Part shown: positions 2,234 through 15,353 of the stretch, in pieces
Layout: every line of letters begins with the position of its first letter
How positions within the stretch are numbered: position 1 is the first letter of the stretch
IMG/VR virus record: IMGVR_UViG_3300047462_000179
Span: 1 to 21,898 of that record
Direction: 5' to 3' (one strand)
Length of the DNA stretch: 21,898 nt
DNA from: a virus
The notes under the pieces: generated by a model
What the model was told of the DNA's origin: nothing
What the model saw: the letters and a program-made list of their open reading frames with translations, nothing else
Database searches by the model: none
Made by a program: the position numbers and the translations under genes

Positions 2234-2250
2234 TTGACAAATAGGTCAAC
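2233..2250 (+). repeat. 6-bp inverted repeat overlapping the -35 box
   Basis: GTTGAC (2233-2238) and GTCAAC (2245-2250) are perfect complements with a 6-base gap. The left arm contains most of the -35 hexamer of the promoter at 2234-2263. It could be an operator for a dimeric repressor or an RNA hairpin on read-through transcripts. Confidence 0.4.
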
Positions 2251-2263
2251 CCCTAGGTACAAT
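2234..2263 (+). promoter_or_regulatory. Sigma70-like promoter, probably leaderless
   Basis: A perfect -35 (TTGACA, 2234-2239) and a 5/6 -10 (TACAAT, 2258-2263) are separated by 18 bases, starting right after the stop of the nuclease gene. Counting the last -10 base as -7 puts +1 at 2270, which is the A of the ATG of the next gene. No Shine-Dalgarno sequence lies at useful spacing, so the mRNA may be leaderless. Confidence 0.6.
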
Positions 2264-2269
2264 ATAAAC

Positions 2270-4384
2270 ATGAAAGCTCGCACTGCAAAACAATTAATGG
2301 TATCGAATCTCCTTGTTAAGCACAAAGCAGGTTCACACGCTTACGGCACCAATATCGAAACATCTGACAAGGATTTCCGTGGAATTTTCTGCGCAGATCC
2401 AATAAATGTACGAACCCCATTCTTTCGTGTTGATGAAGCAAAAGATACGGACGAAGAAGATACAGTCCTTTACGAACTTGCAAACTTCATGAAGCTATGT
2501 TTGGATTGCAACCCAAACATAATCGAAACTCTTTGGGTTCACGAAGACGATATTGTTAAGTCTTCGCATGGGTATGAAGCATTGCGTGCAAATCGACAAG
2601 CATTACTATCATCGAAGATTGCATTCACGACGAGTGGTTATGCACTTGCACAACTTAAGCGTATTCGTGGACACAAGAAGTGGATTAATCAACCACAACC
2701 TGAACAACAACCAAAACCATGTGATTACTTATCTGTTGTTCAATGGCTTGGTGAAGAGAAGAACTTAAAGCCAGCTTTATCAGAATATCACAAAGATCAT
2801 CGTCTTATTCCATTTGGAAACGACATGTTTGGTATTGTCCATGCTCCAAATTTCTCACTATGGTCTTCAAACGAAGGAAATTTAAACGATAAGTTTGATG
2901 GTGATCGTGCAGAGCACAACAATACATATTTAATGGTTGTTAAGTGGAATCGAGATGAATTTAAGATTGCGCTTGAGAAGTGGCAGCAGTACTGGACGTG
3001 GAGGAAAGAACGCAATAAGACTCGTTCAGCACTCGAAGAGGAGTTTGGTTACGATTGTTATACGGAAGATACAGAATTTTTAACATCAACTGGTTGGAAG
3101 AAATTTGATAATGTGTTAGATACTGATACAATAGCTACATTCAATCAATTTTCTCAAAAACTCGAATATCAACTGCCTTATGAAAAAATTGATAGTACAT
3201 ATACAGGTCATCTATATCACTTAACTGGATACCATGTTGATACGTTAGTATCTGCTAATCATAATATGTACGTTCGCCCGTATTCAAGAACACTAAAAAA
3301 GGAAGATGTGTGGCAGTTTCAACGAGCAGCAGAATTGTCAGAAACGTTTGATACGTTAAATATTATTCGTCCTAAAATTAACAGGCAACTTCTCCCACCA
3401 GGCATAAATCATACTTTATTTAGTCACGTTTCAATGTTAGACTATATGAGACTAGTTGGTTGGTATGTGAGCGACGGAACAATTCAATTTTACGAGTCTG
3501 GGAAAGTTAAAACCATGATGATTTCACAATCCAAACCACAATCAAAATTAACGCAAACATTATCAAAACAAATCAATAGTGGAAAAATTAAATGTAACGA
3601 ATATGTAACAGAACCTGGTAAGTTAGCTAATTATCCTGAAAAGCGTTGGCATTTTAACCAAGAATTATCTCAAATTATTTTTGAAGATTGTGGACATGGT
3701 AGTGCTACGAAACGATTACCAAAATGGTGTTTCTTTTTAACAAGAAGAGAAATGACAGCATTGTTGGTCGCTGCTATTCAAGGTGATGGTACAAAGAAGG
3801 ATCATCAAAATCACACATATGTTTATTATTCAATAAACAAATTGTTGGCAGATGATATTCAACGGCTTGCATTTTTGTGCGGATTTGAAACTTCTTTGTG
3901 TGGTCCATTTGAGATTAAAAGTATGTTTGAAACAAAGAATCAAATGTATCATGTACATATCAACATGCGTCCATCTACAACAAGACGTCACACAAGAAGT
4001 GCAGCAGTTAAAAAAATTCCTGTAGTTAATCAACGTATTGTTTGTTTTATGGTAAAAAACTATACGTTAGTTACTCGTCGTAATGGACATATTGGATTGC
4101 ACGGAAATACCAAGCATGCTATGCATCTTGTACGCCTATTGCGAATGGGTGTTGAAGCATTGCGTGATGGTGTAATCAATGTTCGTCGTCCAGATGCAGC
4201 AGAATTGCTCGAGATACGTAATGGTGCTTGGACATACGAAGACCTTGTCGCTTATGCAGAGGATATGGATAAGCAGGTTCGTGAAGTTTGGTACTTTAAA
4301 ACTGATCTTCCAAAAACACCTGACCTTAACTTTGCAGCAGAACTTCTTATGGATGTACAGGATATTGTATGGGACAAGTGGTAA
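2270..4384 (+). CDS. COG3541-type nucleotidyltransferase with in-frame intein
   Basis: Member of the nucleotidyltransferase (Pol beta-like) superfamily related to bacterial YcgL/COG3541. The signature GSHAYG (residues 21-26 from this ATG) is followed by SDKD (Asp33, Asp35), the metal-binding pair. The far C-terminal extein has TKHAMHLVRLLRMG, a conserved motif of this family. Between Asp262 and that Thr lies a 351-residue intein, leaving an extein of about 353 residues after splicing. The substrate of this family is not established. The frame is open back to a TTG at 2234, but that TTG is the -35 box; ATG 2270 fits the promoter and the family start. Its 3' end overlaps the next gene by 16 bases. 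Confidence 0.85.
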   Translation: MKARTAKQLMVSNLLVKHKAGSHAYGTNIETSDKDFRGIFCADPINVRTPFFRVDEAKDTDEEDTVLYELANFMKLCLDCNPNIIETLWVHEDDIVKSSHGYEALRANRQALLSSKIAFTTSGYALAQLKRIRGHKKWINQPQPEQQPKPCDYLSVVQWLGEEKNLKPALSEYHKDHRLIPFGNDMFGIVHAPNFSLWSSNEGNLNDKFDGDRAEHNNTYLMVVKWNRDEFKIALEKWQQYWTWRKERNKTRSALEEEFGYDCYTEDTEFLTSTGWKKFDNVLDTDTIATFNQFSQKLEYQLPYEKIDSTYTGHLYHLTGYHVDTLVSANHNMYVRPYSRTLKKEDVWQFQRAAELSETFDTLNIIRPKINRQLLPPGINHTLFSHVSMLDYMRLVGWYVSDGTIQFYESGKVKTMMISQSKPQSKLTQTLSKQINSGKIKCNEYVTEPGKLANYPEKRWHFNQELSQIIFEDCGHGSATKRLPKWCFFLTRREMTALLVAAIQGDGTKKDHQNHTYVYYSINKLLADDIQRLAFLCGFETSLCGPFEIKSMFETKNQMYHVHINMRPSTTRRHTRSAAVKKIPVVNQRIVCFMVKNYTLVTRRNGHIGLHGNTKHAMHLVRLLRMGVEALRDGVINVRRPDAAELLEIRNGAWTYEDLVAYAEDMDKQVREVWYFKTDLPKTPDLNFAAELLMDVQDIVWDKW
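3056..4108 (+). mobile_element. LAGLIDADG homing-endonuclease intein (351 aa)
   Basis: Block A begins at Cys1 (CYTEDTEFLTSTGW). Block B has SANH with His69. Two LAGLIDADG helices are visible: LVGWYVSDG (residues 133-141, Asp140) and LLVAAIQGDG (236-245, Asp244). The C-terminal blocks read NYTLVTRRNGHIG then LHGN, with terminal Asn351 and Thr as the +1 extein residue. The usual penultimate His is Gly here, a known variant. Splicing would rejoin EFGYD to TKHAMHL. Both endonuclease aspartates and the splicing residues are present, so it looks active for splicing and for homing. The insertion point is in a conserved family motif, as expected for inteins. Confidence 0.9.
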
Positions 4385-9571: not shown

Positions 9572-9817
9572 ATGACAAACGAAGAAATGTTGAAAGATAT
9601 TAAGCGAATGAATGCCGAATCGATTGAATCAATCAAGCGATCAAAAGAGATTTTTCGTGAGCTTTCGAAGGAAGTGGGTTTTCCTGTAAACGATATCGAA
9701 GATATTATTGATGACACATTAAAAATAGCAGAAGAAAATCTCGAAACCGTTTCAACAATTATTCGTGATAATGCATATCACGACGCAATGGATTCTGTAA
9801 TTCCAAAATCAAAATAA
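9572..9817 (+). CDS. Small helical hypothetical protein (81 aa)
   Basis: AAGGG lies upstream of the ATG, within the end of the previous gene. The product is charged and entirely helical (MLKDIKRMNAESIESIKRSK, IIDDTLKIAEENLETV). Its C-terminus, NAYHDAMDSVIPKSK, resembles the YDRAMG-type tail found on the genes at 12128-13485, though less closely. No known family. Confidence 0.7.
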   Translation: MTNEEMLKDIKRMNAESIESIKRSKEIFRELSKEVGFPVNDIEDIIDDTLKIAEENLETVSTIIRDNAYHDAMDSVIPKSK

Positions 9818-11204: not shown

Positions 11205-12131
11205 ATGAGTGCATCCAAACTTTGGTCCGAGTTTTACCGCCCCAAAACACTTAAAGATTACGTTTTCCACGATACGGGGTTGCAGAATGCCGTTCAGAAA
11301 ATGCTTAACGAGAAGTCAGTTCCTCACCTACTCCTATCAGGTATTCAAGGAAGTGGCAAAACAACGTTAAGTCTTGTCCTTATCAATGAACTTGGTGTTG
11401 ATCCAATGGACGTATTGACGATCAATGCATCCGATGAGAATGATGTTGAAACGATGCGAACGAAGATTAAGTCGTTTATCTCAACATATGCAATGGGACC
11501 ATTTAAGGTTGTTCGTTTAGAAGAGGCTGACCGTCTTACACCTCACGCGCAAGATGCACTCCGTGCAATGACTCAAGATTATGTTGATGTTGCTCGTTTT
11601 ATTCTTACTTGCAACTACGAGAACAAAATTACTCCACCTCTTAAGTCAAGAATGCAACATTTTAGATTTGCAAAACCAGATCGAGATGCAGTACTTGAAT
11701 ATGCAGCAACTGTTCTTGTTCAAGAGCATGTTAAATTCACTGCTGATTTACTTGATAAATATGTTTCAGTTGGCTATCCAGATATTCGAAAGATTATCAA
11801 TCTCGTTCAACAAAATACTCACGAGAAGAGATTGCAACCATTGCAACAGGCTGGCGAGAATGGAGATTACAAATTTAAGCTGTTAGAGTTAATTGAAACT
11901 GGTTCGTGGGTTGAAGCCAGATTGCTTGCTTGTGCTGAAGTTGCACGAGAAGAGTGGGAGGATGTTTTTAGGTTCCTATATGAGAACCTACACAAATCAC
12001 CTTCGTTTAGTACGAGGGATAAATGGGAAGCTGGTATTGTTATCATCGCTGACCACCTTTACAAACACGGTATTGTTGCTGATCCAGAGATCAATGCAGC
12101 AGCTATGTTTATTCGCTTGGATCAAATATGA
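11205..12131 (+). CDS. 44: Clamp-loader ATPase subunit gp44
   Basis: AAA+ ATPase subunit that with gp62 opens and loads the sliding clamp (gp45) onto primer-template DNA. It has 308 residues against 319 in T4. Walker A is GIQGSGKT (46-53). The Walker B acidic box reads EEAD (106-109) in place of the classic DExD, as in several phage loaders. Sensor 1 is the TCN in FILTCNYENK. The SRC-type arginine finger is SRM (Ser148-Arg149). The C-terminal collar region is helical. GAGGAG precedes the start, and its own promoter lies upstream. The stop overlaps the next gene (ATGA). The partner gp62 is separated from it by six other genes, unlike the adjacent 44-62 pair of T4. Confidence 0.93.
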   Translation: MSASKLWSEFYRPKTLKDYVFHDTGLQNAVQKMLNEKSVPHLLLSGIQGSGKTTLSLVLINELGVDPMDVLTINASDENDVETMRTKIKSFISTYAMGPFKVVRLEEADRLTPHAQDALRAMTQDYVDVARFILTCNYENKITPPLKSRMQHFRFAKPDRDAVLEYAATVLVQEHVKFTADLLDKYVSVGYPDIRKIINLVQQNTHEKRLQPLQQAGENGDYKFKLLELIETGSWVEARLLACAEVAREEWEDVFRFLYENLHKSPSFSTRDKWEAGIVIIADHLYKHGIVADPEINAAAMFIRLDQI

Positions 12132-12535
12132 CATGTGCTTATGATAGGATTAATACAAATAGACTAACTGAATATATTCGTGCTTGCATTGGTGGTGTTC
12201 TTGAACAATTTGTGTATGAGCCAAACGATGCATTAACAAGAAGTATGATCGTTAGTGCATTACATAGTTTTTGTTTGAATATTAAAGATCGTGGTAGTTT
12301 GTACGATTATGCTATCGTTTGTGATAAAAACAATAATCCATCAAGTATCGTTGAAAACAACATGTTAGTTTGTGATGTTTACATTAAACCACTTCACCTT
12401 GTCGATACACCATTTGTCAATGTGCGTGCAATTATTAACTCTGGATCTGAACTTGTATTGAAGGCTTCAGGGATAACAAAAGAAGATCATTACGCTCGGT
12501 ACGAATACGCAATGGGTGTCCTTGCAAGGAAATAA
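12128..12535 (+). CDS. Stand-alone tail-sheath C-terminal domain protein
   Basis: 135 residues. The order INTNRLTEYI, YEPNDALTR, SLYDYAIVCDKNNNP, IVENNMLVCDVYIKP matches the C-terminal domain of phage tail-sheath proteins (RLxxYIE, FEPND, cd..nN, vdv.ikP). That domain is normally the end of a protein several times longer; here it starts directly at the domain, with a normal coupled start (ATGA overlap with gp44). The last residues, YEYAMGVLARK, carry the tail shared with nearby genes. It could cap or regulate sheath assembly, or be a repurposed fold. The clamp-loader operon context gives no structural partner nearby. Confidence 0.7.
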   Translation: MTCAYDRINTNRLTEYIRACIGGVLEQFVYEPNDALTRSMIVSALHSFCLNIKDRGSLYDYAIVCDKNNNPSSIVENNMLVCDVYIKPLHLVDTPFVNVRAIINSGSELVLKASGITKEDHYARYEYAMGVLARK

Positions 12536-12536
12536 A

Positions 12537-12722
12537 ATGGTTCAACATAATGTATGTAAACATAAAATGATCGATGGTAGTATTGTGGTTGATCCAAATA
12601 CGTTTATTCCATTTTGTACAGTTTGTAAAACAAAGTTTTCAAATTATCCAAATCTAAATGATGAAAAGGAAAATGCAAACGATGCTTATGATAGAGCAAT
12701 GGGCATTGTAGGAAAAAGATAA
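12537..12722 (+). CDS. Small zinc-ribbon-like protein (61 aa)
   Basis: ATG at 12537 is preceded by AAGGA at 6 bases; a GTG at 12516 extends the frame but has no such site. Cys7 and His9 (CKH) with Cys27 and Cys30 (CTVC) form a plausible C-x-H...C-x2-C zinc site. The C-terminus is NDAYDRAMGIVGKR, the clearest copy of the tail shared with the neighbouring genes. A role in nucleic-acid or protein binding is likely but unproven. Confidence 0.7.
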   Translation: MVQHNVCKHKMIDGSIVVDPNTFIPFCTVCKTKFSNYPNLNDEKENANDAYDRAMGIVGKR

Positions 12723-12723
12723 T

Positions 12724-13302
12724 ATGTTGATCGCAGGTATGTTGGAGCCAAAACCAGTTAATCATAATGTAGGAGACTACTGGTATTGCTATGCAAATAG
12801 AGATCTATATGAACTGAAAAGTTTTGTATTGGGATCCCAATGGATGTTGCTTCCATCTGGCACGTTTGTATCTCCTGCTCCACCTCCTGTACTTGCACTT
12901 CCACACCTACCACCACGTCCGTTATGGATTAAACATGGTGATCTAAATCGTATCCCACACTTATATGATTTGCAAGCTCAATATTGGATTCCGATTGTCC
13001 CAATGGGATTTAAGTTTCCTCCACTTAATCCAATAATTGGAGCACAATGGTTTAATTCAAACACAATGTACACGTATCAATACAATGGTGCAAAGTGGAT
13101 AGATATTACTCCACCAAGTCCTGTTGGATCACAAGGCGCAACTGGTCAACAAACAGTTCACCATGCTCCTATTCAAGGACAACTTAATATTAAACCGATA
13201 ACTCTTCCACCAACTAACGTACAAGCAGGTACACCAAAAACTCAACCAGATATGAAACCAAAATATAGCGATTACGATCGTGCAATGAAAGGAATAAAAT
13301 GA
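12724..13302 (+). CDS. Proline-rich protein with a fibre-like W-module
   Basis: 192 residues. Proline-rich stretches (SPAPPPVLALPHLPP) alternate with aromatic segments. Residues 106-128 (GAQWFNSNTMYTYQYNGAKW) resemble the G-x-x-W-F...NG-x-x-W module present in the two tail-fibre genes at 16067 and 17430. The C-terminus is SDYDRAMKGIK, a member of the shared tail. It is probably a structural or virion-associated protein. The start is 1 base after the previous stop, and its own stop overlaps the next ATG (ATGA). Confidence 0.7.
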   Translation: MLIAGMLEPKPVNHNVGDYWYCYANRDLYELKSFVLGSQWMLLPSGTFVSPAPPPVLALPHLPPRPLWIKHGDLNRIPHLYDLQAQYWIPIVPMGFKFPPLNPIIGAQWFNSNTMYTYQYNGAKWIDITPPSPVGSQGATGQQTVHHAPIQGQLNIKPITLPPTNVQAGTPKTQPDMKPKYSDYDRAMKGIK

Positions 13303-13485
13303 ACTTATTCAATGATTCAGATAATAGAAATAGATTAATGGTTATTGATTCAGATAATAGATTAATGGAGTATTTGAAGCCTTACCTTGAAAAAGGGATT
13401 ATACAATCTCTTGATGTAAAGTACGGTTGATCAAGAGAAACAATCAGAACAAGCATACGAACGAGCAATGGGAGTAATAAAATAA
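13299..13485 (+). pseudogene. Frameshifted small gene ending in the shared YxRAMG tail
   Basis: From ATG 13299 (overlapping the previous stop) the frame runs 43 codons to TGA 13428-13430. The adjacent frame, open from 13420, encodes DQEKQSEQAYERAMGVIK and stops at TAA 13483-13485, which overlaps the next ATG by one base. Joining the two frames needs a +1 step near GGT TGA. The conserved tail in the second frame shows that one gene of about 61 codons once existed. It is either a one-base mutation, a sequencing error, or less likely a +1 programmed shift at the slow TGA. Confidence 0.6.
13314..13368 (+). repeat. Short tandem duplication inside the frameshifted gene
   Basis: GATTCAGATAATAG occurs at 13314-13327 and again at 13347-13360, each followed by an ATTAATGG copy. 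The encoded peptide repeats DSDNR...LM. This looks like a recent 33-base duplication with small changes. Confidence 0.7.
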
Positions 13486-13826
13486 TGGCACGTCGGAAGA
13501 AAAATGAAATTGAAACACTTGACGAAACAACAGAGCGTCGTGTAAAGGAAGAAATTTCAAATAATGCAAATCGCAGCGAGAAGACATCGTGGAATCGCAA
13601 GATGGATAACATGGTAAAATTACTTGCTGAACTTCGCCCTATTGAAGATCAGATTATTGCACTCAACGAAAAGAAGATTCCAATCTTCGACGAAATTCAA
13701 AGTCTTCGCAAGCAAATGGTTGCTGATTGTGTGCATCCGTATGAGTATTTGTTAGTTGAAAAAGATCATTCCAAATGCAAATTTTGTGAAAAGCTACTTT
13801 CATTGCCAAATATCGAAGAAATGTAA
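13485..13826 (+). CDS. Coiled-coil plus zinc-knuckle protein (113 aa)
   Basis: Residues 1-80 are charged and helical, with a probable coiled coil at about 38-80 (MVKLLAELRPIEDQIIALN). The end has Cys82 and His84 (CVH) then Cys98 and Cys101 (CKFC), a C-x-H...C-x2-C zinc site like that of the gene at 12537. The start overlaps the preceding TAA by one base (TAATG). It lacks the shared YDRAMG tail. It could be a transcription or assembly accessory factor, but I do not recognise it. A possible second ribosome binding site (TAGGAGG) downstream lies too far from the next gene to serve it. Confidence 0.75.
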   Translation: MARRKKNEIETLDETTERRVKEEISNNANRSEKTSWNRKMDNMVKLLAELRPIEDQIIALNEKKIPIFDEIQSLRKQMVADCVHPYEYLLVEKDHSKCKFCEKLLSLPNIEEM

Positions 13827-13853: not shown

Positions 13854-13881
13854 ATAGTAAACCCCAAAGGATTACTATTAT
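13851..13881 (+). promoter_or_regulatory. RNA hairpin sequestering the lipoprotein start codon
   Basis: ATAATAGTAA (13851-13860) is perfectly complementary to TTACTATTAT (13872-13881), with an 11-base loop holding AAAGGA. The 3' arm includes AT of the ATG at 13880. Read-through RNA would form a 10-bp stem around the start; RNA from the late promoter would lack most of the 5' arm. Confidence 0.65.
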
Positions 13882-14863
13882 GAACCTTAAAATTGCATTA
13901 TTGTGTTTGCTTCTTGCAGGTTGTGGTAGTTCAAGCGTAAGCGTTACAACAAAACCTCCTGTTGTGACTCCACCTCCAGTAGTAGTTACTCCACCTCCAG
14001 TAGTCACTCCTCCTGTTACGAAGCCACCTGTTGTAACACCTCCAGTGGTAACTCCACCAGTAACAAAACCTCCTGTTGTGACTCCACCTCCAGTAGTTGT
14101 TCCTCCAGCGGCTCCTACGTTAAAGATTGCCGCTAATCCTACTACTGTAGTTTTGGGTAGTTCTTCAACGCTTACTTGGTCATCAACCAACGCCACTACA
14201 TGTACTGCTTCGGGTGGATGGACAGGCAAACAAGCAACAAGTGGTTCTCTTACTATTACACCAGCAAGTACTACAACTTATTCTCTAACTTGTGCAGGTG
14301 CAACAGGAACTACTCCAGCTACTCAAAGTGTAAGCATTACTGTTAATCCACCGCCAGCACCTACATTAAAATTTACTGTAAATCCTACAGTTATTGTATC
14401 GGGTAATTCTTCAACACTAACTTGGTTATCAACAAATGCTACAGCATGTACTGCTTCAGGTGGTTGGACTGGTAGTGAACTACTAACTGGTTCACTTATT
14501 GTTTCACCTACAACAAATACCACATATTCGCTAACTTGTGTAGGTGCAAAAGGAACTACCCCAGTAAGTAATAGTGTATCGTTAACCGTTAACCAACCGC
14601 CACCTGTTGTTAACACCGCTAACCTATCGTGGACTGTACCCACAAATAATACAGATGGATCTATTGCATCTCTTTCTGGTTTTATCGTATACTATGGACA
14701 AGATATGTCAAACCTAACGTCCACAATAAACATTGCAGGTGCAACGACAGATACAGCTGAAATAACAAACTTGACCAAAGGTACGTGGTACTTTGTTGTA
14801 GTTGCTGTTGGAACAGATGGAATGGATAGTGCGGATAGCAACGTAGCAATGAAAACATTCTAA
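13880..14863 (+). CDS. Lipoprotein with proline-rich stalk, Ig-like repeats and Fn3-like domain
   Basis: 327 residues. A lipoprotein signal ends in LLAGC with Cys15, so the mature protein should be lipid-anchored. Residues 25-76 are a PPVVTPP repeat stalk. Two Ig-like repeats follow (about 79-156 and 159-238), each with the pattern STLTWxSTNAT, CTASGGWTG and TTYSLTC. A final region (about 243-327) resembles a fibronectin type III domain (LSWTVP, YYGQD, WYFVVVAV). The start has AAAGGA at good spacing inside a hairpin loop. Phage lipoproteins of late or early expression often block superinfection; an adhesive surface role is an alternative. The Pro-rich stalk may cross the cell wall or periplasm. 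Confidence 0.85.
   Translation: MNLKIALLCLLLAGCGSSSVSVTTKPPVVTPPPVVVTPPPVVTPPVTKPPVVTPPVVTPPVTKPPVVTPPPVVVPPAAPTLKIAANPTTVVLGSSSTLTWSSTNATTCTASGGWTGKQATSGSLTITPASTTTYSLTCAGATGTTPATQSVSITVNPPPAPTLKFTVNPTVIVSGNSSTLTWLSTNATACTASGGWTGSELLTGSLIVSPTTNTTYSLTCVGAKGTTPVSNSVSLTVNQPPPVVNTANLSWTVPTNNTDGSIASLSGFIVYYGQDMSNLTSTINIAGATTDTAEITNLTKGTWYFVVVAVGTDGMDSADSNVAMKTF
13952..14107 (+). repeat. Low-complexity Pro/Val/Thr codon repeat
   Basis: Imperfect tandem units encoding PPVVTPP and PPVTKPP make up the stalk of the lipoprotein. Repeats such as CCTCCTGTTGTGACTCCACC recur with small changes, so unit number could vary between relatives. Confidence 0.75.
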
Positions 14864-14864
14864 T

Positions 14865-15353
14865 ATGGAAAAGAAGTACGCGCTTGATATTTTTAAGGTC
14901 CTCGAGAAGTTAAACTTTAAGGATCAAAAATATTTTGATGAACTTTCAGAAGAAGATCTGAAAGGTTTGCATCCTCTTGTTCTTATGAGATGGATGAGTG
15001 GTACATCTGAAGCAAGACAAGTGTTCTTCCTAAATGAACTTGTCAATCCAATGGTATTTCCATTAACGAAGCACAAACAATTACTCTTGAGATTATTAAT
15101 GATCTCTGGACCTGGTAAATCTCGACGATATAGTTGGAATAAGGCAAAGGGAAAGAAGTCATCCAACACACCAAAGACTTTAGCTATGGTCAAACAACAT
15201 TATGGGTATAATACGGATCACGCGTTAGATGCATTGAAGATTTTAACCAATGAAGATATACTGGAACTCGCTGAATACCTCGGAAAGCAACCCGATGAGG
15301 TTAAAGAGATTGCAAAAGAGATCAAGGGTCGTGGAATATTGGTGAATGAATAA
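14865..15353 (+). CDS. 62: Clamp-loader small subunit, gp62-like
   Basis: 162 residues (T4 gp62 has 187). In the C-terminal half, GPGKSRRYSWNKAK, then an alpha-helical segment leading to YGYNTDHALDALKILTNEDI, matches the order in T4 gp62 of a GKRYGKW segment and NTNDAINYKSILT. The N-terminal half, with FFLNELVNPMVFPLTKHKQL, is helical. gp62 completes the gp44 clamp loader as the single non-ATPase subunit. It begins one base after the lipoprotein stop, in contrast to the adjacent 44-62 order in T4. Translation may depend on the upstream gene, as no strong Shine-Dalgarno sequence is seen. Confidence 0.7.
   Translation: MEKKYALDIFKVLEKLNFKDQKYFDELSEEDLKGLHPLVLMRWMSGTSEARQVFFLNELVNPMVFPLTKHKQLLLRLLMISGPGKSRRYSWNKAKGKKSSNTPKTLAMVKQHYGYNTDHALDALKILTNEDILELAEYLGKQPDEVKEIAKEIKGRGILVNE

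Follow-up and report, generated by a model that had tools for sequence, protein, structure and literature searches.

The capsid targeting sequence (CTS) of phage T4 is an N-terminal peptide of about 10 residues that acts in late prohead assembly and is removed by gp21, and it has been discussed as a possible route by which T4-like phages load varied proteins (PMC9026906). The C-terminal tail analysed in this work resembles the CTS as a short peptide that is carried by unrelated small phage proteins and has moved between genes in evolution. However, it is C-terminal, its carriers in G005 show no late-promoter motif upstream, and a CTS-like gene set coexists with it in the same phage. In encapsulin cargo loading and in the encapsulation peptides of microcompartments, a short terminal segment placed after a flexible linker docks cargo proteins to a common receptor. 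The tail, for which docking is proposed, would similarly be a short terminal segment for a common receptor, but its carriers are mostly non-enzymes and include virion-protein fragments. To our knowledge, there is no sequence relation between the tail and these peptides. T4-type clamp-binding C-termini (polymerase gp43, gp33 and gp55) are also short docking segments of hydrophobic and acidic character, as the tail would be. Yet the tail has another motif and is carried by other proteins, while the polymerases of the phages concerned end in SLLDF. Finally, ssrA-like and other C-terminal degrons are portable C-terminal peptides as well; unlike them, the tail is gene-encoded in each protein and is independent of the exact C-terminus. 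A search of the literature for C-terminal tags common to several phage proteins returned nothing relevant.

The window corresponds to an entire IMG/VR record (21,898 bases) and probably represents part of a T4-like phage genome. Its first-pass annotation had reported that four consecutive genes end alike, the fourth being frameshifted, with a weaker copy of the ending further upstream. All of these tails are indeed present, YEYAMGVLARK of the first gene included (Table 1), and the weak copy is kept as AYTDAMGSV (16.5 bits) in the ortholog of the relative L011, a protein that ends AYTDAMGSVLPNNK. The small CxxC protein (gene 2), read as ORF 12516-12722, has AYDRAMGIVGKR as its full C-terminal tail; its ATG at 12537 is a more likely start than the GTG at 12516. 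This protein is also weakly similar to the C-terminal segment of gp23 (E about 0.01 to the gp23-like paralog L100). As for gene 4, its tag has no start codon of its own. Since no convincing slip site for a programmed frameshift was seen at 13430, a sequencing error or a pseudogene is preferred. At L142:3396-3467, a 23-residue ORF consists of little more than the tag, which likewise lies in another frame than the ORF before it; either out-of-frame tag may reflect a sequencing error, a pseudogene or a frameshift.

Table 1. Genes and C-terminal tags in and around the tagged interval of the window.
Feature	Position	Strand	Basis
Tagged gene 0, ending in AYHDAMDSV (weak tag YHDAMDSV, 9776-9799)	9572..9817	+	L011 ortholog
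Large subunit of the clamp loader, similar to T4 gp44; landmark preceding the tagged genes	11205..12131	+	PHROG 168 E=1.5e-64; 52 IMG/VR relatives
Tagged gene 1, stand-alone tail-sheath C-terminal domain + tail	12128..12535	+	Pfam PF17482 E=2.4e-8; Foldseek
Tag YEYAMGVL, then ARK (gene 1)	12500..12523	+	22.6 bits
Tagged gene 2, small CxxC protein (zinc protein of the first-pass annotation)	12537..12722	+	ORF 12516-12722
Tag YDRAMGIV, then GKR (gene 2)	12687..12710	+	25.6 bits
Tagged gene 3, proline-rich, fibre-type GxxWxxxxxxxxYxYxGxxW segment	12724..13302	+	fibre-protein likeness E 3e-3
Tag YDRAMKGI, then K (gene 3; tail DYDRAMKGIK)	13273..13296	+	22.3 bits
Tagged gene 4, broken, frame-shifted	13299..13485	+	frame 0 stop at 13430; tag in +1 frame relative to ORF 13299-13430
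Tag YERAMGVI, then K (gene 4; tail AYERAMGVIK)	13456..13479	+	sequence read
Conserved untagged gene, MARRKK... with C-terminal CxxC; closes the tagged interval in most relatives	13485..13826	+	gene order

The tag recurs far beyond chance. Its consensus is [F/Y]-[D/E]-x-A-M-x-[I/V/L]-[V/L/I]; over 56 8-mers, position 1 is F/Y in 54 and W in 2, position 4 is A in 55 and position 5 is M in all 56, while position 2 is mostly D/E, position 6 G/K/E, position 7 I/V/L and position 8 V/L/I. Every tag lies within the last 18 or so residues, none being internal, and the 8-mer is followed by no residue in 18 of 47 cases, by one in 14 and by two to seven in the remaining 15. The regular expression [FYW][DENH].AM.hh gave 33 C-terminal and 0 internal matches over 11 contigs, these being partial and their genes being called as longest non-overlapping ORFs. 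With a position matrix that was trained on the tags themselves, 51 tags scored 16.2-25.6 bits and the best internal site 12.6 bits among 353,769 positions. Because of this training, residue triples were also counted without any motif at C-termini, at N-termini and in mid-protein. In the 363-kb contig G005, F..AM and AM.I rank first, at C-termini only; at the C-termini of G009, D.AM comes first, and at those of G006, FE..M and F..AM are second and third. No comparable triple leads at N-termini or in the middle of proteins, and in G017, a relative without the tag, none leads at any position. At the DNA level, the pattern has 43 matches in 39 whole records, a few of them internal, versus 3 for the reversed pattern.

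About 50 distinct tagged proteins were found across contigs of one uncultured T4-like clade, with about 13 copies in G005, eight in tandem plus one in G009, and four each in G006 and G008; the gene directly after gp44 often has the same ending in relatives. The C-terminal enrichment that the first-pass annotation had named as support is strong in the clade of the window (the 33 versus 0 matches above), but it does not extend to T4-like phages in general. The 12 isolate phages picked by clamp-loader or sheath similarity are all devoid of true copies: nothing matches in ten of them, and RAS14 and Atu_ph07 have three matches between them, all at internal positions. The relatives G015 and G017 (179 kb) are also without the tag, and in wider DNA pattern scans of IMG/VR, matches outside the clade are mostly internal and probably due to chance. 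Given its absence from the isolates and from G017, the tag seems confined to one uncultured clade, for which a gp44 search of GTDB genomes aimed at finding the host gave no match. The gene that follows gp44 in G017 (L131:10931-11566 = L022:10939-11574) contains a portal-like piece (E=5e-4), and its ...SSIMKTF end is perhaps a decayed tag.

Both the portability of the tail and its conservation are borne out by comparisons between carriers. All-against-all phmmer searches grouped the bodies into many unrelated families, with homology only in some subfamilies and tandem arrays, which excludes simple gene duplication as a general cause of the shared endings. Tag codons and flanks vary widely, whereas the residues are held in orthologous pairs that are 38-47% identical; conservation therefore acts at the protein level. 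In the tandem family of G009, whose bodies are about 30% identical, few columns are invariant, and D76, A78 and M79 of the tag belong to them; this supports, for at least one family, the earlier suggestion that the tail is the most conserved part. Gene 3 of the window (12724) and its counterpart at L011 10091 share residues 1-128 and the tag, with the middle replaced, and a MIDAS-like protein is tagged in one phage but has a degenerate tag in the ortholog of another. Between near-identical pairs, dN/dS leans towards purifying selection (dS 0.015-0.036, dN 0.006-0.014, five changes each). That the shared 3' ends were simply spread by recombination or duplication, the tail being functionless, would fit with the existence of tandem paralogs (L108:619-2583) and with the fast turnover of tagged genes. 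Nevertheless, we hold it to be most improbable in view of the divergent codons and flanks around residues that persist in orthologs of about 40% identity, and of tag columns that are the most conserved ones in the tandem family.

An enrichment of the carriers for pieces of virion proteins had been missed by the first-pass annotation. Partial matches to sheath, portal or gp23 are present in 8 of 64 tagged versus about 9 of 2,032 untagged proteins (odds ratio 32, p about 1e-8), a comparison that treats related contigs as independent and includes one doubtful case among the eight (L222, 28 residues of portal). In the mosaic L095:3295-4602 (435 aa), a sheath C-domain (residues 185-284) is followed by segments of gp23 (310-332) and of portal (336-390), and the protein ends with FDDAMELVK. 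The same portal segment is found in L023 and L030; L026, L106 and gene 1 of the window contain the sheath domain. A gp23 paralog (Gp23 E=2.7e-53), L100:3016-4188, is shortened, with about 110 capsid-protein residues missing, and its counterpart in G031 has a decayed tag at its end. Other carriers are small KOW-like (a label from our own reading of the sequence), CxxC and DUF6794 proteins, many of which have no detectable tie to virion proteins. Searches with defence-system models gave no convincing match for ten carriers. Besides, many untagged partial paralogs of the major capsid protein and of sheath are scattered outside the structural cluster, which is a separate phenomenon; examples are gp23-like (L085:4225-5121, L110:6280-7164, L109:8637-9275, L166:706-2001) or sheath C-domains (L158:7446-7760, L110:12116-12391, L120:15024-15356).

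AlphaFold2 models of two unrelated carriers consist of a confident body with a low-confidence tail outside the folded domain. For 12128-12535, a separate C-terminal helix is predicted at 118-134 (pLDDT about 56-68 versus 85-94 for the core). The PF17482 match of its body is over the curated cut-off, and the top Foldseek matches of the model are tail-sheath complexes of T4 and Klebsiella phages, with one chain of 9mkb, the portal-neck-tail complex of T4, ranking best (E=2.6e-5).

The setting of the carriers bears on when they may act. In several contigs, they follow gp44 or lie between gp46-like and RuvC-like genes (both labels being ours). In G005, the carriers have no TATAAATA within 120 bases upstream, while the sheath and other structural genes have this late motif; yet, since only 33 of 571 genes carry it, its absence from about a dozen carriers is not significant alone. 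The same phage (L084-L102) displays a second portable peptide, of the MKxxDILxE type, which starts several unrelated genes (e.g. 14661-15155, 53951-54778, 124426-124674 and 326595-327233; 12 regular-expression matches, not all convincing) and resembles the T4 CTS. Three of these genes have the late motif and none is tagged. The head-loading signal is thus probably this N-terminal peptide, and the C-terminal tail does something else.

These observations weigh against virion incorporation, one of the roles initially envisaged for the tail. As a C-terminal counterpart of the CTS, the tail would load small proteins into the prohead for injection, following the logic of T4 internal proteins, in which one short peptide targets unrelated proteins (PMC9026906); moreover, one carrier is a gp23 paralog, although it is short of about 110 capsid-protein residues. 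We consider such cargo loading unlikely because carriers adjoin replication genes, show no late-promoter motif in G005 and are distinct from the genes starting with the N-terminal peptide. The scaffold protein was rejected as a source of the tag, its C-terminus being LDYLRKLAGIN or LDHIRKLAGIK. The position of tagged genes after gp44 and gp46 could instead evoke a tail that binds the sliding clamp or the clamp loader, but ...TDSLLDF, with which the B-family polymerase terminates in both G005 and G004, resembles T4-type clamp-binding ends and differs from the tag. The tag is thus distinct from the clamp-binding C-terminus of the polymerase, and docking to the replication machine is improbable; a Pfam search for the sliding clamp had no match anywhere, controls included, and is therefore uninformative. 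A proteolysis tag, also put forward initially, would expose early proteins to rapid turnover by a protease of the host or the phage, and the constant near-C-terminal position, the hydrophobic end and the variety of carriers are in line with it. Since up to seven residues may follow the motif, a degron read at its carboxylate is unlikely, and the strict F/Y, A and M positions look less like a loose hydrophobic end than like docking into a groove; we therefore view degradation as quite unlikely. The tolerance for trailing residues and the SLLDF end of the polymerases favour a docking handle for a shared partner, which is the only initial proposal left standing; that this partner is a single one, we infer.

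Our preferred reading, to which we would give about an even chance and which draws on contigs that are related rather than independent, is that the tail is a portable docking peptide recruiting varied, fast-changing proteins to one common partner, as adaptors or decoys. The tail would form an amphipathic helix of eight residues, one face of which presents F/Y1, A4, M5 and the aliphatic residue 8; placed beyond the folded body and close to the end of the chain, it would dock into a groove of a partner from the phage or the host. Recruitment would most likely take place inside infected cells, ahead of the expression of late genes, and not in the virion; the constant tail would serve as a handle, and the variable body would bind the prey or act as a decoy. 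Mimics of late proteins, made early, may thereby engage the recognisers of these proteins, either sensors of the host or partners in assembly, and the mimic-recogniser complex would be brought by the tail to the common partner. Adaptor or decoy use appears the most likely in view of the excess, among carriers, of pieces from the sheath, portal and major capsid proteins of the phage itself. However, decoys do not account for all carriers, since many have no detectable link to virion proteins, and the untagged gp23 and sheath fragments of the same genomes count against them. Late virion proteins are triggers of bacterial sensors (Avs, CapRel, Lit), which makes an anti-sensor role attractive, albeit unproven. 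In its most specific and rather doubtful form, mosaics of conserved portal, capsid and sheath pieces, and other fast-evolving baits, on the constant tail would be early adaptors that capture host sensors tuned to late virion proteins and hand them beforehand to a neutralising partner.

A constant handle on changing modules would mark phage proteins that work through one partner. The tag offers a sequence rule for extracting this protein set from uncultured phages, as well as a single bait peptide for the search of the partner. Should the mimics of virion proteins prove to be decoys, they would reveal how large phages forestall the sensing of their portal, capsid and tail proteins. Outside the tagged interval, two other genes of the window deserve mention. 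A 716-aa ORF (2234-4384) has an intein-like middle part, from about CYTEDTEFLTSTGWKKF, in a nucleotidyltransferase-like protein. Finally, the product of 13880-14863, located between replication genes, is lipoprotein-like, with a proline/threonine/valine-rich repeat stretch and later repeats.
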